NCBI RefSeq assembly: GCF_030770395.1
Contig: NZ_CP132480.1
Location: 5,069,478 to 5,133,477 of the forward strand
Source of the DNA: Telluria beijingensis
GTDB taxonomy: Bacteria > Pseudomonadota > Gammaproteobacteria > Burkholderiales > Burkholderiaceae_D
Length of the DNA: 64,000 bases
Direction: 5' to 3'
The position numbers and the translations under genes are program-made. Within the stretch, counting starts at the first letter, position 1. Each line of letters starts with the position of its first letter. The notes beneath the pieces were generated by a model. It was not told where the DNA came from and did no database searches. It saw only the letters and a program-made list of their open reading frames with translations. Positions 31,559 through 60,888 of the stretch are shown here, one piece after another.

Positions 31559-31596
31559 CGGCAAATCAATCACGCGCCAATGCTATGCTAGCGACC

Positions 31597-32928
31597 ATGC
31601 CCACAGTTCTCATCATCGACGACAACGCCGCTGTCGCCATGGCGCTCGACGTGCTGTTCTCGCTGCACGACATCGCCTCCCTGCGCGCGGCCTCGCCCGA
31701 GGAGGGCCTGGCCCTGCTCGCGACAGAACCGGTCGACCTGGTAATCCAGGACATGAACTTCACGGCCGACACCACCTCGGGCGAGGAAGGCGTGGCCCTG
31801 TTCCGCGAGATCCGCCTGCGCCATCCCGACCTGCCGGTCATCCTGCTCACCGCCTGGACCCACCTCGATGCGGCGGTCGACCTGGTCAAGCTGGGCGCCG
31901 CCGACTACCTGTCCAAGCCGTGGAACGACGAGCGCCTGCTGGCCACGGTCAGCAACCTGATCGAACTGGGCCAGTCCAACCGGCTGCTTGCCAGCCGCCT
32001 GCAGCGCGAACGCAAGGCGAAAAGCGAGCTCGAACAGAACTTCGACCTGCGCGGCCTGGTGTGGCAAGACCCGGCTACCGAACGCGTGCTGCACCTGGCC
32101 TGCCAGGTGGCGCGCGCCGATGTGCCGGTCTTGATCACGGGCCCGAACGGCACCGGCAAGGAGCGCATCGCCGAGATCATCAAGGCCAATTCGACGGTGG
32201 CCGCCGGTCCCTTCGTGGTGCTCAACTGCGGCGCCCTGCCGTCCGAGCTGATCGAGGCCGAGCTGTTCGGCGCCGATGCCGGCGCCTATACCGGCGCCTC
32301 GAAGGCGCGCGAAGGCAAGTTCGAGGCGGCCGACGGCGGCACGCTCTTCCTCGATGAGATCGGCAACCTGCCGCTGGCCGGGCAGATGAAACTGCTGCGG
32401 GTGCTGGAAACCGGCCGCTTCGAGCGGCTCGGCTCGAACCGCGAGCGGCAGGTGAAGGTGCGCGTGATCAGCGCCACCAATGCCGACCTGGCGGCGATGA
32501 TCCGCGCCGGGACCTTCCGCGAAGACCTGTTCTACCGCCTGAACGTGATCGAACTGCGCCTGCCGCCTTTGAGCGCCCGTCCAGGCGACATCCTGCCGCT
32601 GGCGCGCTCGTTCCTGGCGCCCGGCAAGACCCTGCATCCCGCGAGCGAAGCGGCATTGACGGCCCACGCCTGGCCCGGCAATGTGCGCGAGCTGAAGAAC
32701 GTGATGGCGCGCGCCAACCTGCTCTCCAGCGGCGACACCATCAAGGTGGCGGACCTCGGCCTGCCGGCCGCCAGCCTGCCGGCCCAGGAGTCGGAGCCCG
32801 ACCGCGAGGCCATCGTGGGGGCGCTGGCGCGCGCCGGCGGCGTGGTGGCGCAGGCGGCGAACGAGCTTGGCCTGTCGCGCCAGGCGCTGTACCGCCGCAT
32901 GGAGCGACTAGGGATCGCCCGCCCATGA
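31597..32928 (+). CDS. Sigma-54-dependent NtrC-type response regulator
   Basis: A 443-residue enhancer-binding protein. The receiver domain has IIDDNAA, phosphoacceptor D in LVIQDMNF and K in YLSKPW. The AAA+ domain has Walker A GPNGTGKE, the sigma-54-contacting loop GAYTGA (usually GAFTGA, the Y variant is functional elsewhere) and Walker [12 protein letters not shown] Fis-type helix-turn-helix closes the protein ([19 protein letters not shown]). ATG 31597 is preferred; 31585 is in frame and possible. The gene overlaps that of its kinase (ATGA). It should activate the sigma-54 promoter at 25040 in the same operon and, by shared operator half-sites, perhaps the one at 59908. Confidence 0.92.
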
Positions 32929-42100: not shown

Positions 42101-42441
42101 GGCTCCGGGCCGCTGCTCAGTTGCTGGCGCAGCGCCCAGCCTTCCAGCAGGGCGGCCTCGCTCTCGGCATACCGGTGCACGTGGTGCAGGGTCGAACCGA
42201 ACCTGAGCAGGCTGGCCGAGATGCCGTGCCGGTCGCCGGCCGCGCGGCACAGGCGCAGCGCCTGTTCGTACAAGTCGACCGCCTCCGGGTAGCGTGCCTT
42301 GTTGAAGGCCTGCAAGCCCTGTTCGATCAGCGCGCCGGCAGCGGGCTGGCAGCTGGCGGCGATGGCCGGCGGCGCCACGCACAGCCACGCCACCAGTCCC
42401 AGCGTGCGCACGCCGGCGCCGAACGAGATACGCCGCTTCAT
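39193..42441 (-). CDS. Exported TPR-CHAT protein (putative cysteine peptidase)
   Basis: A 1082-residue protein. The signal peptide (MKRRISFGAGVRTLGLVAWL..PAIAA) is followed by a long array of tetratricopeptide-like helices (about 35-700; e.g. GLQAFNKARYPEAVDLYEQALRLCR), then a C-terminal CHAT domain from about 790. The clan-CD dyad is intact: histidine in MVHIASHF near residue 924 and cysteine in LTLSACETA near 974. CHAT domains are caspase-like proteases, many activated through their TPR part. Its ATG overlaps the stop of the caspase gene (ATGA), so the two peptidases are coupled. Both carry signal peptides, pointing to a periplasmic or cell-surface site. Confidence 0.85.
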   Translation of the reverse strand: MKRRISFGAGVRTLGLVAWLCVAPPAIAASCQPAAGALIEQGLQAFNKARYPEAVDLYEQALRLCRAAGDRHGISASLLRFGSTLHHVHRYAESEAALLEGWALRQQLSSGPEPDDPERERMYYPSELMYLYRQWSRYDLAWEWGEKALRAKASLIGTKASSYGTTLSNMSGIAMITREYARGLPYAREAMDIWEGTSGTDSTDHAWGMRDVGVLLLGQGKMQESYHYLERAYRIRLAAFGPDRTETQTSVQDMAAWHTQAGNDAAALGYAELGLASAIRRFGPDAVDISYALSRVARIHLRLGETAQAASEAERVLHLRRTALGEHNAQTVNAWQDVAKTQLANNRLGRSAAAAQAAMRACLAMPGAVAASCVAHQLDHARALLALGQAGAALVETERAATLARSHGELDGDERSAIMLGAQALRALGRQDDAERALAELGRRVDALPDPAANGQFEIALALDAVRAERGGADLAALAARSSALAQQVGEQRGLSNPAYASALLDAAALNARGPDRALARAHSARAMAIGLANHATLLQARAAAQLSELDGGEHAVFLGKVAVNALQAARENTTGLPVEQQHSFVQLKKEAYQRLVDQLLDRRRIGEAERVLAMVEDNEFHDLVRSADTAGEQDARVVRLRFDGIDAAPERRFALRARALEQAAQALAQARARQAQGSADGPGELAAAQAAMQDLLDQATLEWGGPAQPVGVAAAAAREKAWASPGRATLAPGRLHLTYLVGEQRIRLVVQHDSIARVVTLDINEADLVRDIARLRSLAQNPGRDPRAQAQRLFSQLLAPVLPELAQARTLTLSLNGVLRYLPFAMLHDGRQWLVERLPLQVTGSADLDAAAAGTPASARPRSVALFGQSQASGELPALPFVARELQAVETIGKTERISSTTYLDAGFTADALERALQQSSMVHIASHFVLRPGRDDGSYLVLGNGQQLSLAQLAQARFSFAGLDLLTLSACETAVPAGVDASGRELAGLAWLARERGARHVLASLWRVSDRSTAALMTDFYGELGRGAGKPEALRAAQVRQIRRAAPGGAARGLKAIDEPVDKPSYGHPYYWAGFTLLGT

Positions 42442-44234
42442 TGTCCACCTCCGTTTGCTACCTGCCAGCTGACGCGCGCCACCTGCGCCGCCTCGGGACG
42501 ACGGCCGCCCGCCAGCGCCGCGCCGCGTTCGGCCTCCTGGCTTGCAGGATCGCGCAGCGCGTCGAACAGGGCGAAGCGGCGCGGCATGGCGCCATTGGAC
42601 GCCGGCGCGGCCACCAGCACCAGCCATTCCGGCGCCGCGGCCGCGTCTTGCGCGGTGACCTCGAACGCGCGCTCGAAACGGCCAGAGTGCGGCGGCAGGC
42701 GGTTGCTGTCGCCTTCGAAACGGGGAAACACGCGGGTGGCAGGCCCGGTCAGCGGCAGGTGCACGATGCCGGCATCGGCCGGGTTTTCTCCGCCATTCTC
42801 CACGATCACGCGCAGGCGCGTACCGGGCGCCAGCGGCCCCAGGTCGCGGTCGACGAAGGGCAGGCTGACGGCCAGGCCCTGCCCGGGCGGCGTGACCTCG
42901 ATGCGCGCCTGCAGCAGCGGGGCTGCTGCCGCCGTCGACGGCAGCGCCAGCACGGTGGCGATGCTTGTGGCGCGGGCGCGCAGGGCGGGCACTTCTTCAT
43001 CCGGCACGCGCAGGCGTAGCGAGGCCTGGCCAGGCAGCGACAGGTCGACCGTGCTCGCGCCGCGGCGTCGCTCCAGCACGGAAAATGCCGGCACCTGGGC
43101 CGGTGCAGGCAGGCGCCTGGCCCAGCCGGCGGTGGCCTGGCCGGACGCCGCCAGCCGCGCCTCGTTCCAGCCTACCCCGGTCACGCGCCAGGCGTCGGCG
43201 CCGCGCTGCAGGACGTCGTCCACCCGCAGGCCGTCGAGACGGCCATACGGCACGTACCAGCCGCGCCCATCCTGGCGCACCGGCCAGGATGCCGGCGATA
43301 CGGCGGCCGTCCACAGCGCATGTTCCAGCGCGCCGGCGTAGACCGGCGACGGACGCGCGCTGGGCGGTAGCTGGCGCTCGTCGAAGGCCTGGCGGTAGTA
43401 GGCGCTGGTGAGGCTGGCCCAGGCCAGGTAGCTGGCCGGATTGTCGCGCAGGCCGGCGATCAGGGCGCGCGTGAAAATGCCGCGCGCCTGGCCGGGATGG
43501 TCGCTGGCGAGCGCCTCGGCGCTGCGCTGCAGCGATTCGGCGGCGAAGAAGCCAATGAATAGCGGCCTTTCGCGCGGCCCGGCCGCGGATGCCGGCGGCG
43601 ACGTGCTCGCGCCGGATGCCGGCCGGCCCGCTACGCTCATCGCCCGTGGCGAGGTGCGCAGCACGGGGCTGGCCAGGCCGCGCCAGGCCAGGCCGGCGTC
43701 GCCGCGGGTACTGGCGGCCGCATGGCAGGTGTCGAACATGGCCACGACCTGGACCCGGCGCGCCGCCAGGGCGTCGATCGCATGGCCGATGTCGGCGCTG
43801 CTGACGGTACCCGTGAGCTGGTGGTTGCGGCCATCGACGCGGGCATCCTGCGCCAGCAGGCGCACCTGCTGGCCGAACGGCGTCTGCCACAGGCTGGGCC
43901 GGCCCGGCATCAGGAGCCCGTGACCGGACCAGTAGATGACCAGCACGTCGTCCGCCTGCAGCGTCTTGGCGTAATGCGCCAGCCGGGCCAGGATGGCATC
44001 ACGGGTGGGCGCCGCCGCGCCGTCGACGCCATCGGCCAGGCTCACGATGCGCGACGCCGCGAAGCCTTGCGCCTGCAAGGCATTGCGCATGGCCGGGACG
44101 TCATGGCGCGGTCCGTCCAGCCAGGCGCTGCGCGGCAGCGCCGGCGGGCTCGATACCCCGACCAGGAGTGCGTGGCGCTCGGACGCGCCGGCCGCGCCGG
44201 CAACCCACGCCAGGACCAGGAGCCAGCGGCGCAT
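42438..44234 (-). CDS. Exported caspase-domain (C14) protein
   Basis: A 598-residue protein. The signal peptide MRRWLLVLAWVAGAAGASE precedes a caspase domain (about 20-260) with catalytic H105 in YWSGHGL and C170 in MFDTCHAA. The C-terminal 300 residues are beta-rich (VSLPFVDRDLGPLAPGTRLRVIVENGG, a DUF4384-like segment) and may bind a partner. Prokaryotic caspases of this type (orthocaspase/metacaspase-like) cut after basic residues in known cases. ATG 44234 is chosen for the signal peptide. It is followed, with overlap, by the TPR-CHAT gene; divergent from it lies a membrane protein and lipoprotein operon. Confidence 0.87.
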   Translation of the reverse strand: MRRWLLVLAWVAGAAGASERHALLVGVSSPPALPRSAWLDGPRHDVPAMRNALQAQGFAASRIVSLADGVDGAAAPTRDAILARLAHYAKTLQADDVLVIYWSGHGLLMPGRPSLWQTPFGQQVRLLAQDARVDGRNHQLTGTVSSADIGHAIDALAARRVQVVAMFDTCHAAASTRGDAGLAWRGLASPVLRTSPRAMSVAGRPASGASTSPPASAAGPRERPLFIGFFAAESLQRSAEALASDHPGQARGIFTRALIAGLRDNPASYLAWASLTSAYYRQAFDERQLPPSARPSPVYAGALEHALWTAAVSPASWPVRQDGRGWYVPYGRLDGLRVDDVLQRGADAWRVTGVGWNEARLAASGQATAGWARRLPAPAQVPAFSVLERRRGASTVDLSLPGQASLRLRVPDEEVPALRARATSIATVLALPSTAAAAPLLQARIEVTPPGQGLAVSLPFVDRDLGPLAPGTRLRVIVENGGENPADAGIVHLPLTGPATRVFPRFEGDSNRLPPHSGRFERAFEVTAQDAAAAPEWLVLVAAPASNGAMPRRFALFDALRDPASQEAERGAALAGGRRPEAAQVARVSWQVANGGGQ

Positions 44235-44463
44235 CAGGACTTGGCGCCGGCGTCGGACAGCGTTGTGGGGGCGGGTGTGGTGACCATAAGAAAGATTATG
44301 AGTCCGCCGGTCGGGTTTTGTCGACCGCGAAGTCGCAAAGCATGCACAGTGAATATTTTTGAAGAATTTCTGAAAAACATGCACACGGCTGCGTTCTGGC
44401 CAGTGAATCACACAGCGACAGACTGCGCTCGCAGTACGGCAAACCAGAAGAGGGATCACCATC

Positions 44464-46456: not shown

Positions 46457-48013
46457 TCAGCGCCGTTCGCGCCACCACAGCATCAGCATCGCGGCCGCAA
46501 ACGCCAGCGCGAACGGCCAGGCCGGCATGGGGCGTGTCGGTCCTTGTCCAGGAGTGAGAGGGGTGCGTGCAGCGTAGCGCTGTGTGGCATCCCGTTGTTG
46601 CATCGCCTGCCATTGCGGCCAGTCGGCCCGGTCGTACACGTAGACGGCATGCGCACCGGCCTTGCTGTCTTCCATCCTCAACCAACCGGGTCTCTGCGGC
46701 CACAGCGCGACGCACGATGCGTCGACACGGTCCGCGCGTTGCTGCCAGCGCAAGGCCTGCTTCAATTCCGGGAAGACGACGTCGCCGGCGACGCCGCGCG
46801 CGCACACCTCGAGGCGCTGGCCAGGCAGCGGCATCTCCGCCGGCGCCAGCCATTCGGTGTCCTGGTCCAGCGTCACGCCGACACGGTCGAGCACACCCTG
46901 CCACCACAGCGCCAGCGCGCGCGGTTCGGCGATCGCATGGCGGTGCCACTCGCTCACGCCCAGCCAGGCGATGCGGCCTTTTTTCCAGTCGCGGGTCCAG
47001 ACCATGTCGTCCGAACCCTGCCACGGACCGGCCGCGCGCGATGTCGGCAGCAGCGGCGGCAGCAGCGGCGCCAGCGGCATCTCCAGCGGTTTATCGAGCT
47101 TGCCACCCAGCGGCTGGACGCGCAGCGGCAGTTGCAGCGTGCGCGACCAGATGCCGGGATCGTTCGCATTCCCGCCCAGCACCAGCAGCGGCATGCCGTC
47201 GGCCACGCGTCCCAGCAAGGCCGCGCGCTCGCCAGCGCCCATGCGTTCGAAGCGGGCGGCATCTAACACCATCAGGTTCGGCGCCGTCATCTCTTCGCGC
47301 GGCGCTTCGGTACGGGTGATGTCGCGGCCCAGCGTGACCTGCCAGTCGAGCAGCGCGCCGCTGCCGGCCATCAGCTCGTTGAGCACGCGCAGGTCGAACG
47401 ATGGCGCGCCGAAGCGGCCGACGACCTGCAGCGGGACCGGCTCGTGCACGGTGAACGGGATCGGCCCCTCGGCGATCACCTTGTCTTTCGCGTCCAGCAG
47501 GCGCGCCTTGAGCACGACGCGTTCGGCCACCGGCGGCATCCATTCGACGGCGAGCGTGCCCGCGCCGCTGGCCTGGGCGATACGCTGGCCGTTCTCGGCC
47601 AGCAGTTCCAGGCGTGCTTCACTCTTGTCTTCGCGCTCGACACGCAGGGTGAACACGCGGCCCAGCGCTAGCTGATGCGGAAAATCGAGGCGTAGTGCCC
47701 CGCCCTTTGGTGCTTGCCAGGTCAGCGGCAAGGCCGGCAAATCGTTCCATGCGGCGGCGCGCAGGCCATCGCCTGTCACGCTCAGGGCATTCACGCCCTC
47801 CAGCGAGGTGGGCAACAAGCGCGGCGCCGCCGGGTCGATCGCGAGCGTGCGGCCCGCCTCGCCCGGCACGCGCAGGTCGGCCCCGAACAGGCCCAGGGCG
47901 ATGGCGGCGGCGGCGACCAGCAGCGCGTCGAGCCACTGGCGCCGGCGCAGGTACAGCGCCGCGCTGACCACGCCCGCCAGGGCGATGGCGGCAAGGATCA
48001 GCTGCTGGTTCAT
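46457..48013 (-). CDS. Membrane protein of the MoxR-TldD cluster, GATase-like periplasmic domain
   Basis: A 518-residue protein. Two hydrophobic segments at the N-terminus (about 5-20 and 28-44) and one at the C-terminus (AWPFALAFAAAMLMLWW) flank a large periplasmic region. That region contains NLMVLDAARFERMGAGERAALLGRVADGMPLLVLGG, which resembles the amidotransferase-like fold of aerotolerance-type membrane proteins. ATG 48013 overlaps the stop of the gene upstream (ATGA). It is the last gene of the ten-gene minus-strand operon. Exact function unknown; a membrane partner of the MoxR/DUF58 pair is my inference. Confidence 0.7.
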   Translation of the reverse strand: MNQQLILAAIALAGVVSAALYLRRRQWLDALLVAAAAIALGLFGADLRVPGEAGRTLAIDPAAPRLLPTSLEGVNALSVTGDGLRAAAWNDLPALPLTWQAPKGGALRLDFPHQLALGRVFTLRVEREDKSEARLELLAENGQRIAQASGAGTLAVEWMPPVAERVVLKARLLDAKDKVIAEGPIPFTVHEPVPLQVVGRFGAPSFDLRVLNELMAGSGALLDWQVTLGRDITRTEAPREEMTAPNLMVLDAARFERMGAGERAALLGRVADGMPLLVLGGNANDPGIWSRTLQLPLRVQPLGGKLDKPLEMPLAPLLPPLLPTSRAAGPWQGSDDMVWTRDWKKGRIAWLGVSEWHRHAIAEPRALALWWQGVLDRVGVTLDQDTEWLAPAEMPLPGQRLEVCARGVAGDVVFPELKQALRWQQRADRVDASCVALWPQRPGWLRMEDSKAGAHAVYVYDRADWPQWQAMQQRDATQRYAARTPLTPGQGPTRPMPAWPFALAFAAAMLMLWWRERR

Positions 48014-50094
48014 GGCGCGCCCGCCTCGCGCCAGTTGCGCGCGAACGGGGTCTCGACTTTCGGCGTCGCCTGCAGCAGCACCTGGCCTTCGCCGGCGCCG
48101 CTGCGCAGCCAGGCGCGCAGCACCGGGCGGCAAGCGATGCAGCCGTCGGCCACGTCCTGGATCGCGCGCTGGGCGGCCAGGCGCTGCTCGTCGTCCTTCA
48201 GGCGGGTACGGACCCAGTCGTTGGCGGTGCGCGTCCACAGGGCGGGCAACACGGCTTCGCCGGACAGCGCCTGTACCAGCGTGCGCAACTCTTCCGGCAG
48301 CGGCGCGTCCTGGCCTGCCTGTTCGCGGCGGTAGCTGGCGGCGCCCGCCATCTCGCCGGTCATGCGCTTTTCTTCCTTGATCGGCGGCGGGGTGAAGGCG
48401 GTCTTGTGCAGGTAGATGCGCTCGGCCTGCTGCAATTCCTTGATCGCCTCCAGCGCCTTGTGCTCGGGCGGCAGCGCGGTCTTCGGCGCGATGGCGCGCA
48501 GCGACTTCTCGGCATCCCACATGGCCACCAGCGCGCGCCGCAGCACCTTCTTGGTGCCTTCGTCGTACATGGTCGCGTTCTCGGCCTCGTCGTGCGCGTG
48601 GCCATAGGTTTCGAGGATGTGCTGGGTCTGGTTGACGATGGCGCTGCGGCGGGTGTTCTGGCTGCCGTGGTCGTGGCCGTGGCCTTCCTCGTGCGGATGC
48701 TCGCCGGGGGCGTGGTCATGGCCTTCGTGGTCGTCTTCCTTTTGTGCACCGCCGGTGCCGGATCCGGCATTGTCGGCGAACAGCGTCGACTCCTCGCCCA
48801 GGAACTGGCCATAGCGGCGGCGCAGCTGCGCCTGGTCGTTGGCGATGCGTTCGCTGCGGTCGCGCACGACGTCCGCCGCGATCCTGGTAGAGCGCATATC
48901 GGCCACCAGCTGTTCGGTATCGATGATGATCTGGCGCTGGCTGCGCAGCGAAGCCGGCTTGACCAGCGACGGCATCGCCATGCTTTCCTCTTCCGCTTCC
49001 TGTTCCGGCGCCGGGCGGCGCACGGTGTAGGTCGGCGATTGCACGGTCTGGGGACGGCCGGCATTGTCGGTTGCGCGCACGAAGAAATACAGCTCGTCGC
49101 CCGGTTCCAGCTCCAGCTCGGCCAGCGACCATTGCTTCGACCAGTTGCGCTGCTTCGGGTCGGTCGACGCCGGCAACGGCATTTCGCGGTCGGTGAATTT
49201 CACGTTCTCGCCGCTGCCGCGCGCCAGCGTCATGTGCAGGGTGGCGCGCCGGATCGCGTAATCGTCGCGCACCTGCACCGCCATCGTGGTGCTGGTGGCA
49301 TTGTCGCGCAGGTCCTGGATCATCTGGGTCGGCGCGGTGATCGTGATCTCGGGCGGCTGGTCGGGGATCACCCGCAGCGTGTGACGTTGTCCGCGCCAAC
49401 GCCAGACCACCGACTCGGTGGCGGTCCAGCGCGCGCATTCCTTGCCCGGCTCGAGCACTTCGCCGTTGCCCAGTTCGATCCTGTTGTCGCCTGCGGTACC
49501 GTCCTTCAGGCACCAGCTGACGACGGTCTGTTCCGGCGCCTGCAGGTCGCGCGGGCTTGATTCGGATGCCGCGATGCCGGTATAGGCCGGCGGCGCCAGT
49601 TTGACGGTGAGCTGTGCCAGCGTGGCGGCGGTGGCGCTGCCCACCGGGCTTGCCGGGGTCACGCCGCCCGCTTCCGATGGCCGCGTGGTGGCATACCACA
49701 CCATCCCCGCCAGCACGGCGCTGACCAGAATGATCGGATAGCCGGCCGAGACATGCTGAGCGACGATCCGGCGCAGCTGGGCCGGCGAGACGACGGCGTC
49801 CAGGCGGTCGAACAGGCGCTGCTGCTGGAGGCGGGCGATCGGCGAATCGGCCTGGTCGAGCAGGGCCGCGCTGTCTTCCATCTCCGGCACGGCGCCGTCC
49901 AGCCAGGCGGTCCATTCGAAGGTGACGCGGCGGCGCAGCTTGACCCAGTCCAGCGCGCACCAGCCGGCCCAGGCCAGCAGGCCCGGCCCCGACGGAATCG
50001 CCAGCCACGGCAAGGCGCCGCCTATCCACAGCGGCAGGCGGCGCAATTGCGCTGCGCGCCATACCCGTTTGGTGATCTCAACGCCTCCGTGCAT
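48010..50094 (-). CDS. DUF4175-like membrane protein with His-rich segment
   Basis: A 694-residue protein. Two N-terminal hydrophobic regions (about 19-46 and 120-137) are followed by a large periplasmic part with immunoglobulin-like strands (LAPPAYTG, VIPDQPPEITITAPTQMIQDL) and long helical stretches. At about 450-476 lies a histidine/acid-rich tract (EDDHEGHDHAPGEHPHEEGH...) typical of metal binding. The fold and context fit DUF4175. ATG 50094 is used, overlapping the BatA-like stop by 17 bases. A CxxC (DGCIACRP) near residue 664 could also bind metal. The role is unknown. Confidence 0.7.
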   Translation of the reverse strand: MHGGVEITKRVWRAAQLRRLPLWIGGALPWLAIPSGPGLLAWAGWCALDWVKLRRRVTFEWTAWLDGAVPEMEDSAALLDQADSPIARLQQQRLFDRLDAVVSPAQLRRIVAQHVSAGYPIILVSAVLAGMVWYATTRPSEAGGVTPASPVGSATAATLAQLTVKLAPPAYTGIAASESSPRDLQAPEQTVVSWCLKDGTAGDNRIELGNGEVLEPGKECARWTATESVVWRWRGQRHTLRVIPDQPPEITITAPTQMIQDLRDNATSTTMAVQVRDDYAIRRATLHMTLARGSGENVKFTDREMPLPASTDPKQRNWSKQWSLAELELEPGDELYFFVRATDNAGRPQTVQSPTYTVRRPAPEQEAEEESMAMPSLVKPASLRSQRQIIIDTEQLVADMRSTRIAADVVRDRSERIANDQAQLRRRYGQFLGEESTLFADNAGSGTGGAQKEDDHEGHDHAPGEHPHEEGHGHDHGSQNTRRSAIVNQTQHILETYGHAHDEAENATMYDEGTKKVLRRALVAMWDAEKSLRAIAPKTALPPEHKALEAIKELQQAERIYLHKTAFTPPPIKEEKRMTGEMAGAASYRREQAGQDAPLPEELRTLVQALSGEAVLPALWTRTANDWVRTRLKDDEQRLAAQRAIQDVADGCIACRPVLRAWLRSGAGEGQVLLQATPKVETPFARNWREAGAP

Positions 50095-51061
50095 GCGTGA
50101 GACTCCTTTCCAGTACAAAGAGTGCGGCCAGGATGGCCAGCAGGATGCTGCGCAGCGCGCCACCCGGCGCAGGTGCGTCTGCCTTATCGTCCGCGGCGAA
50201 GGCCTGCGACCGCATCATGTAAGGGCGCGGCCCGATGTGCAACTGCTGCCAATCGTCGAGCAGCGCGCGCGCCGCATCGGCATCGCGCGGTGGCCAATCG
50301 GCATGATGCCACAGGCGGCCGCGCGCGCTGTCGGCGTAGCGCAGTCCATCCACCGTGCGCGCCCTGACCAGTTCGGGGAAGGCGGATGGCTGAGTGATCC
50401 ACCACAATGAGGCGCGCAGAGAAGCCGGCGGCGCCTCTGCGCGGTCCCAAACGATCAGGGTCGTGGCAGCGCCCGGCGTCTCATCCACGACGAATTTCTC
50501 AGGGCCGCCCTGCACGGCGAACATGCGGCGCCATTCGGCCGCGCGTTCGCTGGCAATGTAGACGTGGCGCTCGACCTGGGCCGGAGCGGCAGCCTGGGTG
50601 CGCACCTCGACCGGGCGTCCGAACGCTGGCTTCGAGGCCGGCATCGGCACATCGCCCAGCACCAGGAGGCGTGCGTCACGCTGCCATTCGCGCTCATGCG
50701 TGTGGACCCAGCCCAGCGCCTGCGCGGCGGGCAAAACGACGCGCTCGGCGTTCGCGAGGCCCGCTTGCGTCGCTTCGCGCTCGACCCAGGCAGGATCGGC
50801 CCCTTGCGTTACCACGACCGTATCGCCACGGAAGGGATACACCGGATTGGCCAGCCAGGCGATGAGCGCCACCAGCAACAGGCAGCGCACCAGCAGCAGG
50901 AGAGGATCGCTCCAGCGCCAGATGCGGGTCTGGCGCGGTTCGGTGCGCGGCAGGAAGCGCGCGGTCGCCATCGGCGCCGCCTTGTTCTGCACGCGCTTGC
51001 GGCGATGCCACCAGACCGGCAGCAACAGGATGGGCAGCGTAAGCCACCAGAGTGCACTCAT
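50078..51061 (-). CDS. BatA-like (aerotolerance N-terminal domain) membrane protein
   Basis: A 327-residue protein. MSALWWLTLPILLLPVWWHRR is the typical first helix of the BatA domain, with a second helix at about 53-71 and a C-terminal one (ILLAILAALFVLERSL). The middle is periplasmic, and I see no MIDAS motif. Such proteins are found with MoxR ATPases and DUF58 proteins as a membrane complex. It starts 4 bases after the DUF58 stop and overlaps the next gene. Confidence 0.8.
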   Translation of the reverse strand: MSALWWLTLPILLLPVWWHRRKRVQNKAAPMATARFLPRTEPRQTRIWRWSDPLLLLVRCLLLVALIAWLANPVYPFRGDTVVVTQGADPAWVEREATQAGLANAERVVLPAAQALGWVHTHEREWQRDARLLVLGDVPMPASKPAFGRPVEVRTQAAAPAQVERHVYIASERAAEWRRMFAVQGGPEKFVVDETPGAATTLIVWDRAEAPPASLRASLWWITQPSAFPELVRARTVDGLRYADSARGRLWHHADWPPRDADAARALLDDWQQLHIGPRPYMMRSQAFAADDKADAPAPGGALRSILLAILAALFVLERSLTHARRR

Positions 51062-51065
51062 GACT

Positions 51066-51950
51066 TCACCTTCCCGGGCGCCGCAGCCAGCGCCGCAGCA
51101 CGTCGATTGGCGACTGCTCGATCGCGGCCAGCGTCAGCGGCATATCGTTCTTGCGGCACTGGGCCGTGACCGCGCCAAAGTGCGCCTCGCGGTTGCGGCG
51201 ATAGCCTTCCCGCAGGTCGGCGCCGAAGCGGAACACGCCCTCTTCCTGTTCCGGATCGCGGTAGGCCAGCTCGCTGGAAAAGCTGGCGTCGACCTCGGCC
51301 TGGGTCTGCAGGCCCAGCACGCGCACGTCGTGGCGCATCTGGCGCAGCCGGGTCAAGGCGATCGACAGCGGCGACGGCCAGTCGAGCAGGTCGCTGGCGG
51401 CGTAGATCGCGCTGGGCGACTGGGCGAAGTGCAGGCTGGCCTTCAGGGTTTCGGTATCGGGCAGGCTGCCTTCCGGTGTGGCGCGCTGCAGCTGGGACAG
51501 CACGCGCTGCAGGTGGCGCGGTCCGCGCAAGGCCGGCGTAAACGCCACCTTGCCAGCGCCCAGCACCACCAGGCCGAAGGCATCGCCCTGGCGCTGCGCG
51601 ATCGCGGCGACGCAGCCGAGCAAGGCGCGGGCGTAGGCCAGCTTGTCGAGTCCCTCGACGCTGCGGCTCGGTTCTGCCATCGAGGCGCTGGCGTCCAGCA
51701 CCAGCCAGACCGCCACATGGCTGTCGCGCTCGGCCTCGCGCACGAAATAGCGGTCGGCGCGTGCGGCCAGTTTCCAGTCGACCCGGCGCCACTCGTCGCC
51801 CGGCACATAGGCGCGGTATTCCGAGAACTCGACGCCGGCCCCGCGCTCGCGCCCGGCGTGGATGCCGTGCCCGAGGCCGGCCAGCACGTGGCGGATCACC
51901 AGGTCGAGTTTCCGGGTGTGCGCGATCAGCGCGGTATTCGCTAACGACAT
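51066..51950 (-). CDS. DUF58 protein with von Willebrand A-type domain
   Basis: A 294-residue soluble protein. The DUF58 hallmark GRERGAGVEFSEYRAYVPGDEWRRVDWKLAARADRYFVRE is at about 33-73, followed by a VWA domain whose MIDAS motif is LDASASM near residue 86. DUF58/VWA proteins pair with MoxR AAA+ ATPases in complexes that mature or activate other proteins, often by metal insertion. The spacing to moxR upstream is 14 bases. Its client is not known; the TldD peptidases of the same operon are candidates. Confidence 0.9.
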   Translation of the reverse strand: MSLANTALIAHTRKLDLVIRHVLAGLGHGIHAGRERGAGVEFSEYRAYVPGDEWRRVDWKLAARADRYFVREAERDSHVAVWLVLDASASMAEPSRSVEGLDKLAYARALLGCVAAIAQRQGDAFGLVVLGAGKVAFTPALRGPRHLQRVLSQLQRATPEGSLPDTETLKASLHFAQSPSAIYAASDLLDWPSPLSIALTRLRQMRHDVRVLGLQTQAEVDASFSSELAYRDPEQEEGVFRFGADLREGYRRNREAHFGAVTAQCRKNDMPLTLAAIEQSPIDVLRRWLRRPGR

Positions 51951-51964
51951 GATGCAAGCGCCCT

Positions 51965-52969
<1,005 letters not shown>

Positions 52970-52972
52970 TGC

Positions 52973-53596
52973 TCATGCTCCCAACGCATATTGAATGATG
53001 TTCACCGCGAAGCGGGTGTTGTCGACCGCAAGAAAACGCTTGTTGCGGAAGTCGTAATCCCATTCGCAGCCATAGTCCTTGTTCGAGTACAGCACGCGCA
53101 ACCGTCCGCCAATCTCGATCGCCTTCAGGTACTCGTGCACCAGGTCGTCGCCCCAGCCATTGAGTTCCATCGACGTCGTCGGCGGCCCGTCCTCGAACTT
53201 GAAGAAGCACGAGTACAGCGGGTGGTTGTTCGGGATCTTCTTCAGGGCCTGCGGCCCGAAGATCCTGGCCATCTCGGCCTCGAACGACTTGGCGAACAGG
53301 CCGTCGATATCGTGGTTGCAGTCGTCCACGAACACGAAGCCGCCGCCGCGCACGTACTTCTCGAAATTGCTCCGTTCCGCCGGGGTGAACTGCACCAGCT
53401 TGTGGCCGGCCAGGTAGCAGAACGGGGCCTGCAGCATCTTCGGATCCGACAGGGCCACCATGCGCTCCGTCGTATCCACCCGCAACGTGGTGTACTCCAC
53501 CAGGGAGTTCAGCACGTTGCTGGGCATGCGGACATCCACGTCCCAGTTGCCCGATTCATACATCAGGCGCGTGAAGTAGAAGTCAAAACTGGCCAT
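52973..53596 (-). CDS. DUF4159 protein
   Basis: A 207-residue protein beginning MASFDFYFTRLMYESGNWDVD, a start typical of DUF4159, with the GATase-like core ERSNFEKYVRGGGFVFVDDCNHDIDG and a WGDDLVHEYLKAIEIGGRLRVLYSNKDYGCEWDYDF segment. There is no signal peptide, whereas many family members are exported. Function is unknown. It lies 16 bases after the second PmbA gene and just before moxR, linking the two halves of the operon. Confidence 0.8.
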   Translation of the reverse strand: MASFDFYFTRLMYESGNWDVDVRMPSNVLNSLVEYTTLRVDTTERMVALSDPKMLQAPFCYLAGHKLVQFTPAERSNFEKYVRGGGFVFVDDCNHDIDGLFAKSFEAEMARIFGPQALKKIPNNHPLYSCFFKFEDGPPTTSMELNGWGDDLVHEYLKAIEIGGRLRVLYSNKDYGCEWDYDFRNKRFLAVDNTRFAVNIIQYALGA

Positions 53597-53612
53597 GTCG
53601 ATCTACAGCCAA

Positions 53613-54950
53613 TTACACCGCGTCGGACAGCGAGGTGAAGTTGAAGTCGCGCACCTTCATCGGCGGCAGCACCATCTGGAACGGCACTTCGTCGCCGCCG
53701 ATGATCTGCGGCTTGCCCAGTTCGTCGATATTGTTCAGGATCGTGACCGGGCTCTCGTTGAAGCGGAAGTTCTTGAGCGGGTACTTGATCTTGCCGTTCT
53801 CGACATAGAAGGTGCCGTCGCGGGTCAGGCCGGTGAGCAGCAGCGACTGCGGATCGACCATGCGGATATACCAGGTGCGGGTGACCACGATGCCCTTCTT
53901 GGTGCCCGCGATCAGCTCTTCCAGCGACTTGGTGCCCCCCGCCATGATCATATTGCCGTGGCCCGCGGTGGCCTGCTTGCCGGTCTTCTGAGCCCAGTAG
54001 CGCGAGTAGTCGAGCGAGGCGATGCGGCCATCCTTGACCAGCTGGGTGCGTTCGCGCGCCAGCAGCGACTCGTTGTCCCACGGCGCGACCGGCACGTCCT
54101 TGTCCCACGGGTCGGCCCAGATGTTCACCTGGCTGTCGAACAGCTTGTCGCCCAGGCGGTTCTTGCCGCCGGCTTTCGACAGGAAGCTGCGGCCTTCGTC
54201 GGCCGAGCGGGCGTCGAAGGAGCTGAACATATTGCCGAGGATTTCCGAGGTCGCCGCCGGTTCCAGGATCACGGTATAGCGGCCCGGCTCGAGGGCGCGC
54301 GCCTCGACCGAACGCAGCGCCTTCTCGATCGCGACTTCCGACGCTTCGCGCGCGTCGAAGCGCGCGGCGTCGACCGCCGAGCGGGTCACCCAGCCCGAAC
54401 CGCGGCCGTCTTCGGTGCGCGCGGTCAGCGTGAACGACAGGTCGGTGAAGTCCTGGTGTCCGAACACGCCGTTCGAGTTGGCGATGGTCGAGAAGCGGGT
54501 GCTGTCGACGAAATAGCCGGCCGTGACCAGCTTGTTCTTGCGCGCCAGCTCGATGCTGGTGGCCGCGACCTGGGCCCGGAAGTCCGGGTCGATCGACGCC
54601 GTGGCCGGCACGAAGGTCTTGGTGGCGCGGTATTCCTGCTTCGCGATCGCCGGCATGAATTCCGGATTCTCCGGCGCCAGCCTGGCCAGCTCCTCGGCGC
54701 GGCGCACCGCTTTTTCCAGCGATTTGTCGTCGAACTCGTTGACCATGGCGGTGCCGCTGCGCTTGCCGAAGGCCACGCGCACGACCAGCTGCATGTCTTC
54801 GGTCAGGCCGGCGGTCGACACGCTATTGCGCGCGAAGCGCACGTTGCCGACACGGCTGCCTTCGATCTGCACCGTGCACTCGTCGGCTTTCGACAGCGAC
54901 AGTACGCGATCGGTGATTTTCTTTGCTTGTTCCTGGTTCAGGGTCTTCAT
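53613..54950 (-). CDS. PmbA/TldE-like protein (second copy)
   Basis: A 445-residue protein of the TldE/PmbA half of the TldD-TldE peptidase. It contains FARNSVSTAGLTEDMQLVVRVAFGKRSG and VILEPAATSEILGNMFSSFDARSADEGRSFL, and lacks the zinc motif, as expected for the non-catalytic subunit. In E. coli TldD-TldE is a heterodimeric zinc protease that matures microcin B17 and degrades CcdA. No signal peptide is present, although the partner TldD has one. It starts 10 bases after tldD copy 2. Confidence 0.88.
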   Translation of the reverse strand: MKTLNQEQAKKITDRVLSLSKADECTVQIEGSRVGNVRFARNSVSTAGLTEDMQLVVRVAFGKRSGTAMVNEFDDKSLEKAVRRAEELARLAPENPEFMPAIAKQEYRATKTFVPATASIDPDFRAQVAATSIELARKNKLVTAGYFVDSTRFSTIANSNGVFGHQDFTDLSFTLTARTEDGRGSGWVTRSAVDAARFDAREASEVAIEKALRSVEARALEPGRYTVILEPAATSEILGNMFSSFDARSADEGRSFLSKAGGKNRLGDKLFDSQVNIWADPWDKDVPVAPWDNESLLARERTQLVKDGRIASLDYSRYWAQKTGKQATAGHGNMIMAGGTKSLEELIAGTKKGIVVTRTWYIRMVDPQSLLLTGLTRDGTFYVENGKIKYPLKNFRFNESPVTILNNIDELGKPQIIGGDEVPFQMVLPPMKVRDFNFTSLSDAV

Positions 54951-54960
54951 CCTGGTCTCC

Positions 54961-56598
54961 TTATCCGATCTTGCGTGCGGTGTTGATGACGTTGATGCCG
55001 TTGAAGCGCGTGGTGCTCGATCCGTGCGACACCGCGCTCACCTGGCTCGGCTGGCCCTTGCCGTCGAAGAAGGAGCCGCCCATGCGCCAGTCGCGCTCGT
55101 CGCAGATGGCCGAGCAGGCATTCCAGAATTCCTGGGTATTGGCCTGGTAGGCCACGTCTTCCAATGGACCGGTGATCTTGCCGTTCTTGATCTCGTAGTA
55201 CAGCGTGCCGCCGAACTGGAAGTTGTAGCGCTGCTGGTCGATCGAGTAGGAACCGCGGCCCAGGATGTAGATGCCCTTCTTGACGTCCTGGACCATTTCG
55301 TCCGGAGTCAGGCGCGCTTTGCCCGGTTCCAGCGAGACGTTCGGCATGCGCTGGAACTGCACCGTGCTCCAGCTGTCGGCATACGAGCAGCCGTGCGATT
55401 CCTTCTCGCCGATGATGTGGGCCTGGTCGCGCGTGGCCTGGTAGTTGACCAGGATGCCGTCGCGGATGATGTCCCACTTCTTGGCCGGCACACCTTCGTC
55501 GTCGTAGCCGATGAGGCCCAGCGAGCCAGGCGTGGTACGGTCTGCAACAAAATTGACGCGCTCGGCGCCGTACTTGAATTTCTTCGTCTGCCACTTGTCG
55601 AGGCCCGCGAAGCTGGTGCCGGCGTAGTTGGCTTCGTAGCCGAGCACGCGGTCCAGTTCCGTCGGGTGGCCGACGTTTTCGTGGATGGTGAGGAACAGGT
55701 GTTCGGGCGACAGCACCAGGTCGTACTTGCCCGGCTCGACCGACTTGGCGGTCAGCTTTTCGCGCGCCTGCTTGCCGGCCAACCGCGCGTCTTCCACGAT
55801 GTCGTAGGAGCGGGTGTACAGCGTGGTGACGCCGCCTGCTGCGCGCACCTTGTCCGCGGCCTTGGCGTCGAAATATTCATAGCCCATCGACGCCGGGGCG
55901 CCCAGGCCGCCGCGCGAGCGGAACTTGCCGGTCTTCTGGTCGACGGCGGTGGCATTGATCGGAGCCCACAGGCGGTGGATGTCCTGGTCGATGTAGGAGC
56001 CGTCGGTGGAGGCGAAGTATTTTTGCTGGTTGATCTGGAATAGCGAGGCGGTCATGAAGTTCGCGCCCGCATCCAGGCCGGCCTTGTTGGCGGCGATCAG
56101 CATGTCGGCCTTTTCCTTGACCGGCAGGGTGCGCCAATCCTTGACGATCGGCGTGGCCCACGCCACTTCGCCGACGCCCTTCACCGGCGCCAGGCGTACC
56201 GGTTCGGTCTGGAGCTTGGCATTGGCCTTGGCGATGGCCACCGCCTGGCGCGCGGCCTGGGCGATGCCATCCGGGGTCATGCTGTTGGTCGACGCGAAAC
56301 CGTAGGCGCCATCGGCGATCACGCGGATCCCGACGCCGCTCGACTCGGTATTGTTGATGCTCTCGACGTTCAGGTCGCGCGTGATGATGAACTGGTTCAG
56401 GTAGCGGCCGATGCGCACATCGCAGTACGACGCGCCGGCCTGCGTGGCCGCGCCCATCGCGGTATCGGCCAGGACCTTCTTGGCGCTCGCCGCCATCGGC
56501 TTGAGCAGGTCTTCGGCCGCGATCGCGTTGCCGAATACCGGAATGAGCATGGCGCCGGCAGTGCCAGCGCCAATTTGCAGGAATTTACGACGTTCCAT
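54961..56598 (-). CDS. TldD-like zinc metallopeptidase with Tat-type signal (second copy)
   Basis: A 545-residue TldD homologue. The catalytic HENVGHPTELDR supplies H306, E307 and H311 of the HExxxH motif, and a cysteine in SAICDERDW is the likely third zinc ligand. The N-terminus MERRKFLQIGAGTAGAMLIP...AIAA is a twin-arginine signal with an AxA site, unlike cytosolic E. coli TldD, so export in folded form is predicted. Its copy 1 is close in sequence (duplication). The operon is interrupted upstream by a 169-bp spacer holding two REP palindromes. Confidence 0.88.
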   Translation of the reverse strand: MERRKFLQIGAGTAGAMLIPVFGNAIAAEDLLKPMAASAKKVLADTAMGAATQAGASYCDVRIGRYLNQFIITRDLNVESINNTESSGVGIRVIADGAYGFASTNSMTPDGIAQAARQAVAIAKANAKLQTEPVRLAPVKGVGEVAWATPIVKDWRTLPVKEKADMLIAANKAGLDAGANFMTASLFQINQQKYFASTDGSYIDQDIHRLWAPINATAVDQKTGKFRSRGGLGAPASMGYEYFDAKAADKVRAAGGVTTLYTRSYDIVEDARLAGKQAREKLTAKSVEPGKYDLVLSPEHLFLTIHENVGHPTELDRVLGYEANYAGTSFAGLDKWQTKKFKYGAERVNFVADRTTPGSLGLIGYDDEGVPAKKWDIIRDGILVNYQATRDQAHIIGEKESHGCSYADSWSTVQFQRMPNVSLEPGKARLTPDEMVQDVKKGIYILGRGSYSIDQQRYNFQFGGTLYYEIKNGKITGPLEDVAYQANTQEFWNACSAICDERDWRMGGSFFDGKGQPSQVSAVSHGSSTTRFNGINVINTARKIG

Positions 56599-56661
56599 GT
56601 GTGTTATCCGTTTGCGTTGCAGGTGCTCGCGTTGGCGCTCGCACTTGCGTTAGCGTTTGCA

Positions 56662-56747
56662 CGTCGTTCCCGCGAAGGCGGGAACCTAAGTTTGCATGAG
56701 CAGCCACTGCGCTGAGAAACTTGGGTTCCCGCCTGCGCGGGAACGAC
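56662..56747. repeat. Inverted pair of REP palindromes (copies 2 and 3) inside the operon
   Basis: Copy 2 (56662-56693) and copy 3 (56717-56747) are reverse complements of each other over about 30 bases, each with the GTTCCCGC / GCGGGAAC palindrome, separated by some 23 bases. The pair would fold into one long hairpin in the mRNA between pmbA copy 1 and tldD copy 2, which could adjust the expression of the two halves. Confidence 0.75.
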
Positions 56748-56767
56748 GGGGCCGAGGCTGCAGGTGC

Positions 56768-58102
56768 TTAGACCGCGTCCGACAGCGACGTGAAGTTGAA
56801 GTCGCGGATCTTCATCGACGGGATCAGCATCGAGTAGCGCGCTTCGTCGGCGCCGATGACCACCGGCTTGCCGATTTCCTCGATATTGTTCAGCATCGAG
56901 ACCGGGCTTTCATTGAAGCGGAAGTTCTTGATCGGATGCTTGATCTTGCCGTTCTCGACGTAGAAGGTGCCGTCGCGGGTCAGGCCGGTCAGCAGCACCG
57001 ATTGCGGGTCGACCATGCGGATATACCAGGTGCGGGTCACCAGCACGCCCTTCTTGGTGTTGGCGATCAGCTCTTCGGTGGTCTTGTTGGTGCCAGCCAT
57101 GATGATGTTGCCGGCCGCGCCCACCGCGCGCTGGTTCTTCTGCTGCGCCCAGAAGCGCGAGTAGTCGAGGGCATTGATCTTGCCGTCCTTGACCAGTTCC
57201 ACGCGTTCGCGCGGCAGCATGTTCTCGTCCCACGGCAGCACGGCGACGTCCTTGTCCCACGGGTCGGACCAGATATTGACCTGGCTGTCGAACAGCTTGT
57301 CGCCCAGGCGGTTCTTGCCGCCGGCCTTCGACAGGAAGCTGCGGCCCTCGTCGGCGCGGCGCGCGTCGAAACCGCCCAGCATGAACGACAGCAGGTCCGA
57401 GGTCGCGGCCGGCTCCATGATCACGGTGTAGCGGCCCGGCTCCAGCGCCTTGGCGTCGACCGAGCGCAATGCCTTCTCGATCGCGATCTCGGCCGCTTCG
57501 CGCGGGTCGAACTTGCTCACGTCGCGCGCCGAGCGCTTGACCCAGCCCGAACCGCGGCCGTCTTCGGTGCGCACGGTCAGGGTGAAGTCGAGCGAGGTCG
57601 AGGCCTGGTGCCCGAACAGGCCATTCGAGTTGGCGACCGTCTCGAAACTGGTGCGGTCGGTGAAGAAGCCGGCCGAGACCAGGCCGCGCTTGCGGCAGCC
57701 TTCGATCGCATACGCCGCGGCTTGCGCGCGGTATTCGGGATCGATGTCGGCGGTCTTCTGCACGAAGGTGTCGGACGGCTTGTACGCGGTCTTGGCGATC
57801 GCCGGGATGAATTCCGGATTGTCCGGCGCCAGCTTGGCCAGGTCTTCGGCGCGGCGCACGGCGCGTTCGATCGACTTGTCGTCGAACTCGTTGATGGTGG
57901 CCGTGCCCTGCTTCTTGCCGAAGGCGACCTGCACCTGCACGCGGGTGTCGTCGGCCAGGCCGGCGGTCGAGACGGCGTTGCGGGCGAAGCGGATATTGCC
58001 GATGGTGCTGCCTTCGATATTGACGATGCACTCGTCGGCCTTGGTCAGCGACATCACGCGGTCGCTGATCTTCTTGGTTTGTTCCTGGGTCAGGATGCTC
58101 AT
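56768..58102 (-). CDS. PmbA/TldE-like protein (first copy)
   Basis: A 444-residue homologue of the copy at 53613, with FARNAVSTAGLADDTRVQVQVAFGKKQG and VIMEPAATSDLLSFMLGGFDARRADEGRSFL. It is the non-catalytic partner of the TldD encoded 9 bases upstream. No signal peptide is seen, so if the pair acts outside the cytoplasm it must be carried across with TldD. The two PmbA copies are clearly similar along their whole length, showing that the pair, not the single gene, was duplicated. Confidence 0.88.
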   Translation of the reverse strand: MSILTQEQTKKISDRVMSLTKADECIVNIEGSTIGNIRFARNAVSTAGLADDTRVQVQVAFGKKQGTATINEFDDKSIERAVRRAEDLAKLAPDNPEFIPAIAKTAYKPSDTFVQKTADIDPEYRAQAAAYAIEGCRKRGLVSAGFFTDRTSFETVANSNGLFGHQASTSLDFTLTVRTEDGRGSGWVKRSARDVSKFDPREAAEIAIEKALRSVDAKALEPGRYTVIMEPAATSDLLSFMLGGFDARRADEGRSFLSKAGGKNRLGDKLFDSQVNIWSDPWDKDVAVLPWDENMLPRERVELVKDGKINALDYSRFWAQQKNQRAVGAAGNIIMAGTNKTTEELIANTKKGVLVTRTWYIRMVDPQSVLLTGLTRDGTFYVENGKIKHPIKNFRFNESPVSMLNNIEEIGKPVVIGADEARYSMLIPSMKIRDFNFTSLSDAV

Positions 58103-58111
58103 GGTCGTCCC

Positions 58112-59746
<1,635 letters not shown>

Positions 59747-59893
59747 GTGTTCTCCTGAAGGATCTACTCCGGGCAGCGGTTCCGCAAACAGCTCGGCGCC
59801 GCTCTTGTATGTACATCGCTATTGTTGTGATTTTTGCCGGTGCGAGACGCGGCAAACCTCTCAACCATAGCAGCAACTAAACGTTTTGAATAG

Positions 59894-59908
59894 GCAATCT
59901 TTGTGCCA
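59894..59908 (-). promoter_or_regulatory. Sigma-54 promoter of the TldD-MoxR operon
   Basis: Minus strand TGGCAC-AAAGA-TTGC: every conserved position of the sigma-54 consensus fits, and the GG and GC are 10 bases apart. The start site is near 59882, leaving about 135 bases of leader before tldD copy 1. An operator array lies 60-146 bp upstream. Confidence 0.85.
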
Positions 59909-59942
59909 GCTCAATGTACTAATCGCTGCGTGTGTTTAGCAG

Positions 59943-60028
59943 TGTCCGCAGGGTGTCCGGGCGGTGTCCGGGCGGTGTCCGGGTGTCCGCCGCGGACAGT
60001 CAATACGGGAACAATGCTTGACTGTCCG
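59943..60028. promoter_or_regulatory. TGTCCG/CGGACA operator array between the TldD operon and the methyltransferase gene
   Basis: TGTCCG occurs at 59943, 59954, 59965, 59976 and 59984, mostly 11 bp apart (one DNA turn). CGGACA at 59993 makes the perfect palindrome TGTCCGC-C-GCGGACA with the last. A further 11-bp inverted repeat joins CGGACAGTCAA (59993-60003) with TTGACTGTCCG (60018-60028). The sites share the half-site seen before the ABC exporter. They lie at the right distance for an enhancer-binding protein acting on the sigma-54 promoter at 59908. Confidence 0.7.
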
Positions 60029-60105: not shown

Positions 60106-60888
60106 ATGAAACGACTGATCCTGGCCGCGATGCTGGCAACCGGCATCGCCGGCGCCGCCCACGCGGACGACGCCCTCAAATCCGCCATCGCCGGCGAACA
60201 CCGCGCCGCCGCCAACAAGGCCCGCGACACCTACCGCCACCCCTATGAAACATTGACCTTCTTCGGCATCAAGCCGACCATGAAGGTGATCGAGCTGTCG
60301 CCGGGCGGCGGCTGGTACACCGAGATCCTGGCGCCCTACCTGCGCGACCAGGGCAAGCTGTATGGCGCCGTACCGGACGCCGAGAGCCGCGGCGGCAAGG
60401 CGTTCCGCGAGCGCCTGGCGGCCAATGGCGCCGTGTACGGCAAGGTGACCCCGGTGCTGTTCGCGCCGCCGACTGGCTTCGAGCTGGGCGCCCCGAACAG
60501 CGTCGACATGGTGGTCACCTTCCGCAACCTGCACAACTGGCTGGGCAACGGCGACGACGCCGTGCTCGCCGTGCTGAAGGAAGCGCACAAGGTGCTCAAG
60601 CCGGGCGGCGTGCTGGGCGTGGTCGAGCACCGCCTGCCGGCGAAAATGCAGCAGGACGCGAAAGCCTCGAGCGGCTACGTGCACGAAGCCTATGTGATCC
60701 GCATGGCCGAACGCGCCGGCTTCAAGCTGGCCGCCAAGTCGGAAATCAACGCCAACCCGAAGGACACCGCCGACTATGAAAAAGGCGTGTGGACCCTGCC
60801 GCCGGTGCTGACCAACAAGGACCAGGACCGCGAGAAGTACCTCGCCATCGGCGAGAGCGACCGCATGACGCTGAAATTCGTCAAGTAA
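60106..60888 (+). CDS. Exported class I methyltransferase-fold protein
   Basis: A 260-residue protein with signal peptide MKRLILAAMLATGIAGAAHA. The mature part has a SAM-dependent methyltransferase fold: VIELSPGGGWYTEILAPYLRD (motif I), VDMVVTFRNLHNW and VLKPGGVLGVVEHRLP. SAM is not known in the periplasm, so the exported protein may bind another ligand, or the fold may be re-used; similar proteins occur in related bacteria. ATG 60106 is chosen for the signal peptide. It diverges from the TldD operon across the operator array and ends at a hairpin. Confidence 0.82.
   Translation: MKRLILAAMLATGIAGAAHADDALKSAIAGEHRAAANKARDTYRHPYETLTFFGIKPTMKVIELSPGGGWYTEILAPYLRDQGKLYGAVPDAESRGGKAFRERLAANGAVYGKVTPVLFAPPTGFELGAPNSVDMVVTFRNLHNWLGNGDDAVLAVLKEAHKVLKPGGVLGVVEHRLPAKMQQDAKASSGYVHEAYVIRMAERAGFKLAAKSEINANPKDTADYEKGVWTLPPVLTNKDQDREKYLAIGESDRMTLKFVK

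Follow-up and report, generated by a model that had tools for sequence, protein, structure and literature searches.

A conserved operon joins TldD/TldE peptidases, with a predicted Tat signal on TldD, to a MoxR/VWA module in Telluria beijingensis

Introduction

What do MoxR–VWA modules act on, and to what end? A ten-gene operon of Telluria beijingensis bears directly on this question: here a candidate client from a known enzyme family—the peptidase TldD, with its partner TldE (PmbA)—shares an operon with MoxR and DUF58/VWA genes. The operon lies in a stretch of 64,000 nucleotides (positions 5069478–5133477 of a 6.0-Mb single-contig genome), which was analysed as a whole and is called the window; coordinates below refer to it unless stated otherwise. 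A first-pass annotation of this stretch had proposed a sigma-54-driven machine that matures, loads or deploys two exported TldD/PmbA pairs under stress control.

Gene order and co-occurrence indicate that the ten genes are one conserved unit, more than neighbours, in which TldD is a predicted substrate of twin-arginine translocation (Tat) and carries aspartate in place of a cysteine metal ligand. About 100 loci were examined, all with a TldD candidate client beside the MoxR module, and the question thereby becomes directly testable. If the mechanism proposed below is true, it would extend TldD/E, a signal-less peptidase in E. coli, to the periplasm and would, for a first time, connect DUF4159 and DUF4175-like proteins with a function.

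Results

The operon

The ten genes occupy positions 46457–59746 of the minus strand in the order TldD1-TldE1-TldD2-TldE2-DUF4159-MoxR-DUF58-BatA-DUF4175-like-GATase-like:

58112–59746, minus strand: TldD1, 544 aa; Tat-like start MERRTFLNL; HExxxH; Asp replaces the Cys metal ligand
56768–58102, minus strand: TldE1 (PmbA-like), 444 aa; without export signal and without HExxxH
56662–56748, no strand assigned: inverted repeat resembling a repetitive extragenic palindrome (REP), 32-nt arms, 94%; separates the two TldD/E pairs
54961–56598, minus strand: TldD2, 545 aa; Tat-like start MERRKFLQI; HExxxH
53613–54950, minus strand: TldE2 (PmbA-like), 445 aa
52973–53596, minus strand: stand-alone DUF4159 protein, 207 aa; profile match to solved structure 4i66
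51965–52969, minus strand: MoxR AAA+ ATPase, 334 aa; has Walker A
51066–51950, minus strand: DUF58/VWA protein, 294 aa; DASAS motif resembling a metal ion-dependent adhesion site
50078–51061, minus strand: BatA-like membrane protein, 327 aa
48010–50094, minus strand: DUF4175-like protein, 694 aa from the ATG at 50094; N-terminal helices, His/Asp-rich loop, GHxHD and CxxC motifs
46457–48013, minus strand: GATase-like membrane-anchored protein, 518 aa; Ig/FN3-like region and GATase1/ThuA-like domain (residues 193–381)

Pfam places PmbA/TldD domains 1–3 in all four TldD/TldE proteins and recognises DUF4159 (E-value 4.9e-51), MoxR AAA_3 (7.4e-65), DUF58 (4e-31) and BatA (1.8e-06); the DUF4175-like and GATase-like proteins of the window match no Pfam family of their own. 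Taken with a predicted model and an aligned set of relatives, these assignments confirm the cluster of named families given in the first-pass annotation.

With start codons as assumed, neighbouring genes overlap or are 3–16 bp apart, the sole exception being the 169 bp between TldE1 and TldD2, which contain the REP-like hairpin. An end of the operon at this hairpin was rejected: a terminator scan listed no minus-strand site in the gap, and the corresponding gap, measured between match ends in 17 relatives, is 2–34 nt in ten and 42–133 nt in seven. Copies of the REP-like element stand at 24877, 56662, 56725, 62657 and 62798 in the window.

Conservation as one unit

The survey was anchored on DUF4159. 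Genomes with this gene number 56 among 249 in a phylum sample, 11 among 369 in a class sample (ten of them pass the curated cut-off) and 19 among 116 in a family sample. Genomes of the window's family that have the cluster are termed Massilia-type, the closest named DUF4159 relatives being Massilia and Telluria. TldE precedes and MoxR follows DUF4159 on one strand in 18/18 family relatives, 5/5 distant genomes and 80/80 named loci, the last count including a contig that ends before MoxR (L135). The named loci were drawn with an alignment of eight DUF4159 proteins, which retrieved at least 585 related stretches; they are the best 80 matches to this distant query rather than a random sample. L159 and L069, on contigs of equal length and at almost identical positions, are probably one record. 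By title they are mainly Sphingomonadales, Caulobacterales and Lysobacteraceae, and gene order is kept across these groups and the Massilia-type genomes. A record labelled Bacillus subtilis (L139) has a Lysobacteraceae-like cluster and is probably contaminated.

All ten genes were seen in 17 of the 18 family relatives other than the window, and the arrangement recurs in the five distant genomes (L069–L071, L085, L086), where TldD is present once or twice. Detection at the 80 named loci was complete for TldD and TldE; for the other genes it came to 79 (MoxR), 75 (DUF58), 71 (DUF4175-like) and 54 (GATase-like). Nine loci lacking MoxR, DUF58 or DUF4175-like genes have a contig end within 2.9 kb; in 17 further named loci the GATase-like gene alone went undetected.

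A search for TldD of the exported type (TldD2 as query, E 1e-60) returned the identical 19 of 116 family genomes that have DUF4159, each with two copies close to it, and 4 of 369 class genomes, scored on up to three candidates each, all with DUF4159 close by. Every copy adjoins DUF4159 (38/38 in the family sample and 7/7 in the class sample, both including the window's two). The co-occurrence of TldD pairs and MoxR module in other genomes, on which the first-pass annotation had let its single-unit claim depend, is thus found.

Export signal and metal site of TldD

The 104 sequences (103 loci and the window) yielded 163 TldD and 122 TldE frames with a length of 380 codons or more; three loci had no TldD frame of this length. 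The motif RRxF[LMIV] lies near the N-terminus of 162/163 TldD frames, at residues 3–4 in 156, and is missing only from a frame-shifted, partly masked copy in L153. A hydrophobic N-terminal stretch (mean hydropathy >1.3) marks 158/163 TldD and 0/122 TldE, and the strict Tat pattern including AxA fits 129/163 TldD. The window's genome has a TatC gene, and its other TldD and PmbA (L003, L002) begin without a Tat-like motif. TldD is accordingly a predicted Tat substrate and TldE lacks an export signal, so that the earlier description of both pairs as exported holds for TldD and fails, as far as signals go, for TldE.

HExxxH is present in 162/163 TldD frames—the frame-shifted copy again excepted—and in 0/122 TldE. 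According to PMC5810440, the metal ligands of E. coli TldD are His262, His267 and Cys454, and activity appeared only when TldE was present. The E. coli motif CGKEGQ aligns with FDGKGQ in the window's TldD; F[FS]DGKGQ occurs in 162/163 TldD frames and CGKxGQ in none of the 163. As the same source records some TldD members with Asp in place of Cys, the swap is a variant and does not exclude these proteins from the family; they score below the cut-offs of the E. coli-type NCBIfam models.

Within the window TldD1 and TldD2 are 77% identical, TldE1 and TldE2 71%. A tree of 71 TldD proteins, to which 41 of the 104 sequences contributed, traces the Massilia-type pair to one duplication, with support of 1.0 for the group and of 0.92 and 0.94 for its two copies; the TldD duplication of Lysobacteraceae is a different one.

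MoxR, DUF58 and the membrane proteins

Walker A is present in 102/102 MoxR matches, and DxSxS in 66/98 DUF58 matches, the six exceptions displayed reading DATAS. By tblastn BatA was found in Massilia-type loci only (18/103); the gene in the BatA position nonetheless matches Pfam BatA in all three distant loci tested (L093, L098, L118). The DUF4175-like protein is named after its aligned relatives, 12 of 35 of which match PF13779 (DUF4175), at best with 1.9e-15; the window's own member does not. GHxHD is found in 94/95 DUF4175-like frames, the remaining one being cut by a contig end. This motif and, in part of the family, the His-rich loop are compatible with a metal role, and with a metallopeptidase alongside, metal handling is a reasonable guess.

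Searches of solved structures and folds with the DUF4175-like protein gave nothing useful. The predicted model of the GATase-like protein contains a GATase1/ThuA-like domain, with related glycosidase domains scoring equally, and Foldseek on its whole chain returned low TM-scores.

A promoter pattern common to the operon and an exporter

Two elements upstream of TldD1 define the promoter pattern:

59894–59908, minus strand: near-perfect sigma-54 −24/−12 site TGGCACAAAGATTGC, about 150 bp upstream of TldD1
59984–59998, minus strand: palindrome TGTCCGCGGCGGACA, first in a CGGACA half-site array (about 59940–59998), proposed as binding sites of a sigma-54 activator

Matches to the sigma-54 consensus TGGCAC-N5-TTGC with up to two mismatches show no excess over chance in the window (15 against 40.6 expected). 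A site near TldD1 (0–1 mismatch, −86 to −176) recurs in 11 of 17 relatives with sufficient upstream sequence, L061 being excluded as not assessable; ten of the 11 have four or five CGGACA half-sites and L057 has one. In seven cases the array is followed by WATCAANNNNTTR, which resembles the consensus of integration host factor (IHF).

The combined CGGACA and sigma-54 pattern gave 29 rows, or 27 distinct places, in 16 of 19 Massilia-type genomes—nine before TldD1, three before the HlyD gene described below, six before a second HlyD type accompanied by a divergent NtrC-type regulator, and nine elsewhere—against ten rows for a reversed control. In the window's own genome it occurs at only three places (before TldD1 and two HlyD genes), and the control at none. 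The combined pattern stands out and the palindrome alone is not enriched (40 against 42 in the reversed control over 19 genomes, one strand each; 6 against 11 in the own genome), so that as a lone regulon marker it was rejected. At the second of these (3735883–3735955 of the genome; L009/L020) a HlyD-type gene and a divergent NtrC-type regulator accompany the same palindrome and a perfect sigma-54 site. Further perfect sites lie ahead of two other genes, one pilin-like and one with an end of PEP-CTERM type (L013, L014).

The linked exporter, its regulator and a receptor gene lie on the other strand:

24998–25011, no strand assigned: CGGACA palindrome of the exporter operon, with an IHF-like site between it and TGGCACGGATCATGC
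25040–25054, plus strand: sigma-54 site TGGCACGGATCATGC of the exporter operon, one mismatch
25091–29670, plus strand: HlyD, ABC ATPase and two MacB/FtsX permease genes
31585–32928, plus strand: NtrC-type response regulator with sigma-54 and Fis-type domains
32925–34292, plus strand: histidine-kinase-type protein
36705–39170, plus strand: TonB-dependent receptor, encoded between the exporter and TldD operons

Upstream of the exporter's HlyD gene, 17/17 sequences have a sigma-54-like site (0–2 mismatches, 48–52 nt before the match) with one to seven half-sites, and 10/17 an IHF-like site. An orthologue of the regulator (81–90% identity) is present in 16/18 relatives; with the window counted, it lies 9.5–20 kb from DUF4159 in 15/17, the other two being on other contigs. 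The two genomes without it (G676, G625) also lack the TldD1 array and a nearby sigma-54 site. We infer that this regulator binds the CGGACA sites. By its promoter pattern the operon goes with a MacB/FtsX-type exporter and not with a general stress response, which amends the stress control first proposed.

The receptor lies beside or between both operons in 10/16 relatives examined, and two Lysobacter loci (L138, L146) have a homologue with 56–57% identity ahead of TldD. The exporter is followed in the window by an M61 peptidase, the regulator and the kinase-type protein; the M61 gene (29612–31558, between the second FtsX gene and the regulator) was undetected at that place in 16 relatives examined. 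Flanking frames of six non-Massilia loci, read by eye, showed no common theme.

Other features

A caspase-like (Peptidase_C14) protein is encoded past the operon's end (42438–44375, minus strand), and a divergent methyltransferase-like gene whose product has an apparent signal peptide lies at 60106–60888 (plus strand). Rfam and tRNA scans of the window gave no matches.

Discussion

We give roughly even chances to the view that the operon encodes a Tat-exported periplasmic metallopeptidase together with a dedicated MoxR/VWA assembly machine, perhaps metal-loading, that acts on peptides. TldD would fold with TldE in the cytoplasm before Tat export, the signal-less TldE being carried along as a hitch-hiker, and a His-His-Asp metal site in place of His-His-Cys would suit an oxidising compartment. 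MoxR and DUF58 may form an ATP-driven cytoplasmic chaperone pair, and the membrane scaffold, with periplasmic domains that pass on metal or hold the peptidase, would consist of BatA, the GHxHD-bearing DUF4175-like protein and the GATase-like protein. In Massilia-type genomes the NtrC-type two-component regulator, acting on CGGACA repeats with sigma-54, would activate the operon and the HlyD-ABC-FtsX exporter jointly; the likely task would therefore be foreign or toxic peptides in the envelope.

Two published precedents bear on these steps: E. coli TldD/E degrades unfolded peptides, which it binds sequence-independently (PMC5810440), and MoxR has been postulated to insert a metal ion into Bat proteins (PMC3557215). 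Exported TldD/E with a promoter pattern in common with a MacB/FtsX-type exporter and a flanking outer-membrane receptor is most simply explained by the handling of periplasmic peptides. The fullest form of the proposal—a class of Tat-exported TldD/E adapted to the periplasm by the Cys-to-Asp swap, with a hitch-hiking partner and its own metallating or assembling MoxR-DUF58-BatA-DUF4175 machine, set in Massilia-type genomes within a peptide-defence island of exporter, TonB receptor and NtrC-type two-component system—is offered tentatively, as possible and some way short of probable.

Several observations weigh against the proposed peptidase machine. As to its metal-loading part, the His-rich loop is variable, with at least five His per 30 residues before GHxHD in 36/94 frames and none to two in 12, and the predicted model of the DUF4175-like protein is weak (predicted TM-score 0.39) and unreliable around the loop. 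Tat substrates generally receive their metal ahead of translocation, which leaves no obvious need for a loader in the periplasm. E. coli TldD acquired Zn or Fe in overproducing cells without a MoxR machine, and metal addition restored the apoenzyme (PMC5810440); this argues against the need for a loader, while the GHxHD motif stays compatible with the loading idea of the first-pass annotation.

Regulation is also uneven. Six of the 17 relatives lack the nearby sigma-54 site and the array (0 or 1 half-site), and four of these six keep the regulator; in L068, one of the six, a match with one mismatch lies at −325. Beyond the Massilia-type lineage a sigma-54 site was found without mismatch in 1/82 loci and with one mismatch in 2/82, so that the sigma-54 drive of the first reading is rare outside that lineage, and the exporter was undetected in the flanks, save a weak ABC match in L148. 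As to the unit itself, TldE1 of L061 is a 144-nt remnant (at 11994–12153 of that locus, between two full TldD genes, unless this is an assembly error), and tblastn found no TldD near DUF4159 in 13 class loci (L072–L084) or in L087 and L088 from other classes, some of these loci being on short contigs. As a whole, the reading of the first-pass annotation is partly supported.

Of the alternatives, general envelope quality control fares best: the MoxR/VWA module would be a Bat-like envelope machine with TldD/E as its housekeeping protease for misfolded or leftover peptides, with no link to foreign ones. The wide distribution of the cluster without the exporter favours it, as do the study of Bat proteins in oxidative stress (PMC3557215) and a biofilm study in which some genes of a Stenotrophomonas maltophilia operon were lowered in all isolates (PMC7688217). 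The promoter pattern common to operon and exporter in Massilia-type genomes, beside their own two-component system, runs counter to it, and we consider it doubtful.

Peptide maturation seems to us unlikely. On this view a secreted ribosomal peptide would lose its leader to exported TldD/E in the periplasm, and its way out would be the linked exporter, which has the operon's promoter pattern; E. coli TldD/E indeed cuts the modified microcin B17 precursor (PMC5810440), and TldD/TldE appear, judging by titles, in the literature on peptide biosynthesis. However, Sphingomonadales and Lysobacteraceae loci retain the cluster just as well, although their flanks show no exporter beyond the weak match mentioned, and a general function fits this better than a single product.

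A role in phage defence was rejected, MoxR matching mad8 only marginally (E 5e-4, in a search that left TldE1 and TldD1 outside). That the TldD pairs and the MoxR module are mere neighbours with separate functions, as MoxR, DUF58 and DUF4159 close together without TldD in five loci (L072, L073, L079, L087, L088) might suggest, is highly improbable and was rejected on the unfailing adjacency of exported-type TldD to DUF4159 and the order kept from Sphingomonadales to Massilia-type genomes.

Comparison with known systems

In a full-text literature search, with subscription papers mostly outside its coverage, DUF4159 was not mentioned and links between TldD and DUF4159, DUF4159 and MoxR, or TldD and a Tat signal were not found; TldD with twin-arginine matched only a hot-spring survey. 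New here are the Tat-like TldD start, the Asp ligand, the GHxHD motif and the CGGACA and sigma-54 pattern common to operon and exporter.

The MoxR/DUF58/VWA module of methanol-dehydrogenase maturation (mxaRSACKL) is thought to insert metal into an exported enzyme; here the client would be a peptidase. The BatA-DUF4159 fusion clusters of other classes resemble the operon in having MoxR and DUF58 near DUF4159 (L087, L088; in L088, BatA and DUF4159 share one 988-aa frame) and differ in having no detected TldD/E. Similar in content, by description, is the S. maltophilia operon NIPOLPBK_01784-01792, which PMC7688217 presents as an uncharacterised operon: besides two TldD and a MoxR-like ATPase it encodes a putative protease, a membrane protein and three products listed as hypothetical.

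With Bat modules the operon has in common MoxR, DUF58 and a BatA-type double-anchor protein in that order, to which it adds peptidase genes and DUF4159 and DUF4175-like proteins. With the E. coli TldD/TldE (PmbA) heterodimer it shares three Pfam domains, HExxxH in TldD alone and a sequence match to 5nj5, but its TldD has a Tat-like signal and an Asp third ligand, and its peptidase pair is duplicated and fixed to a MoxR/VWA operon.

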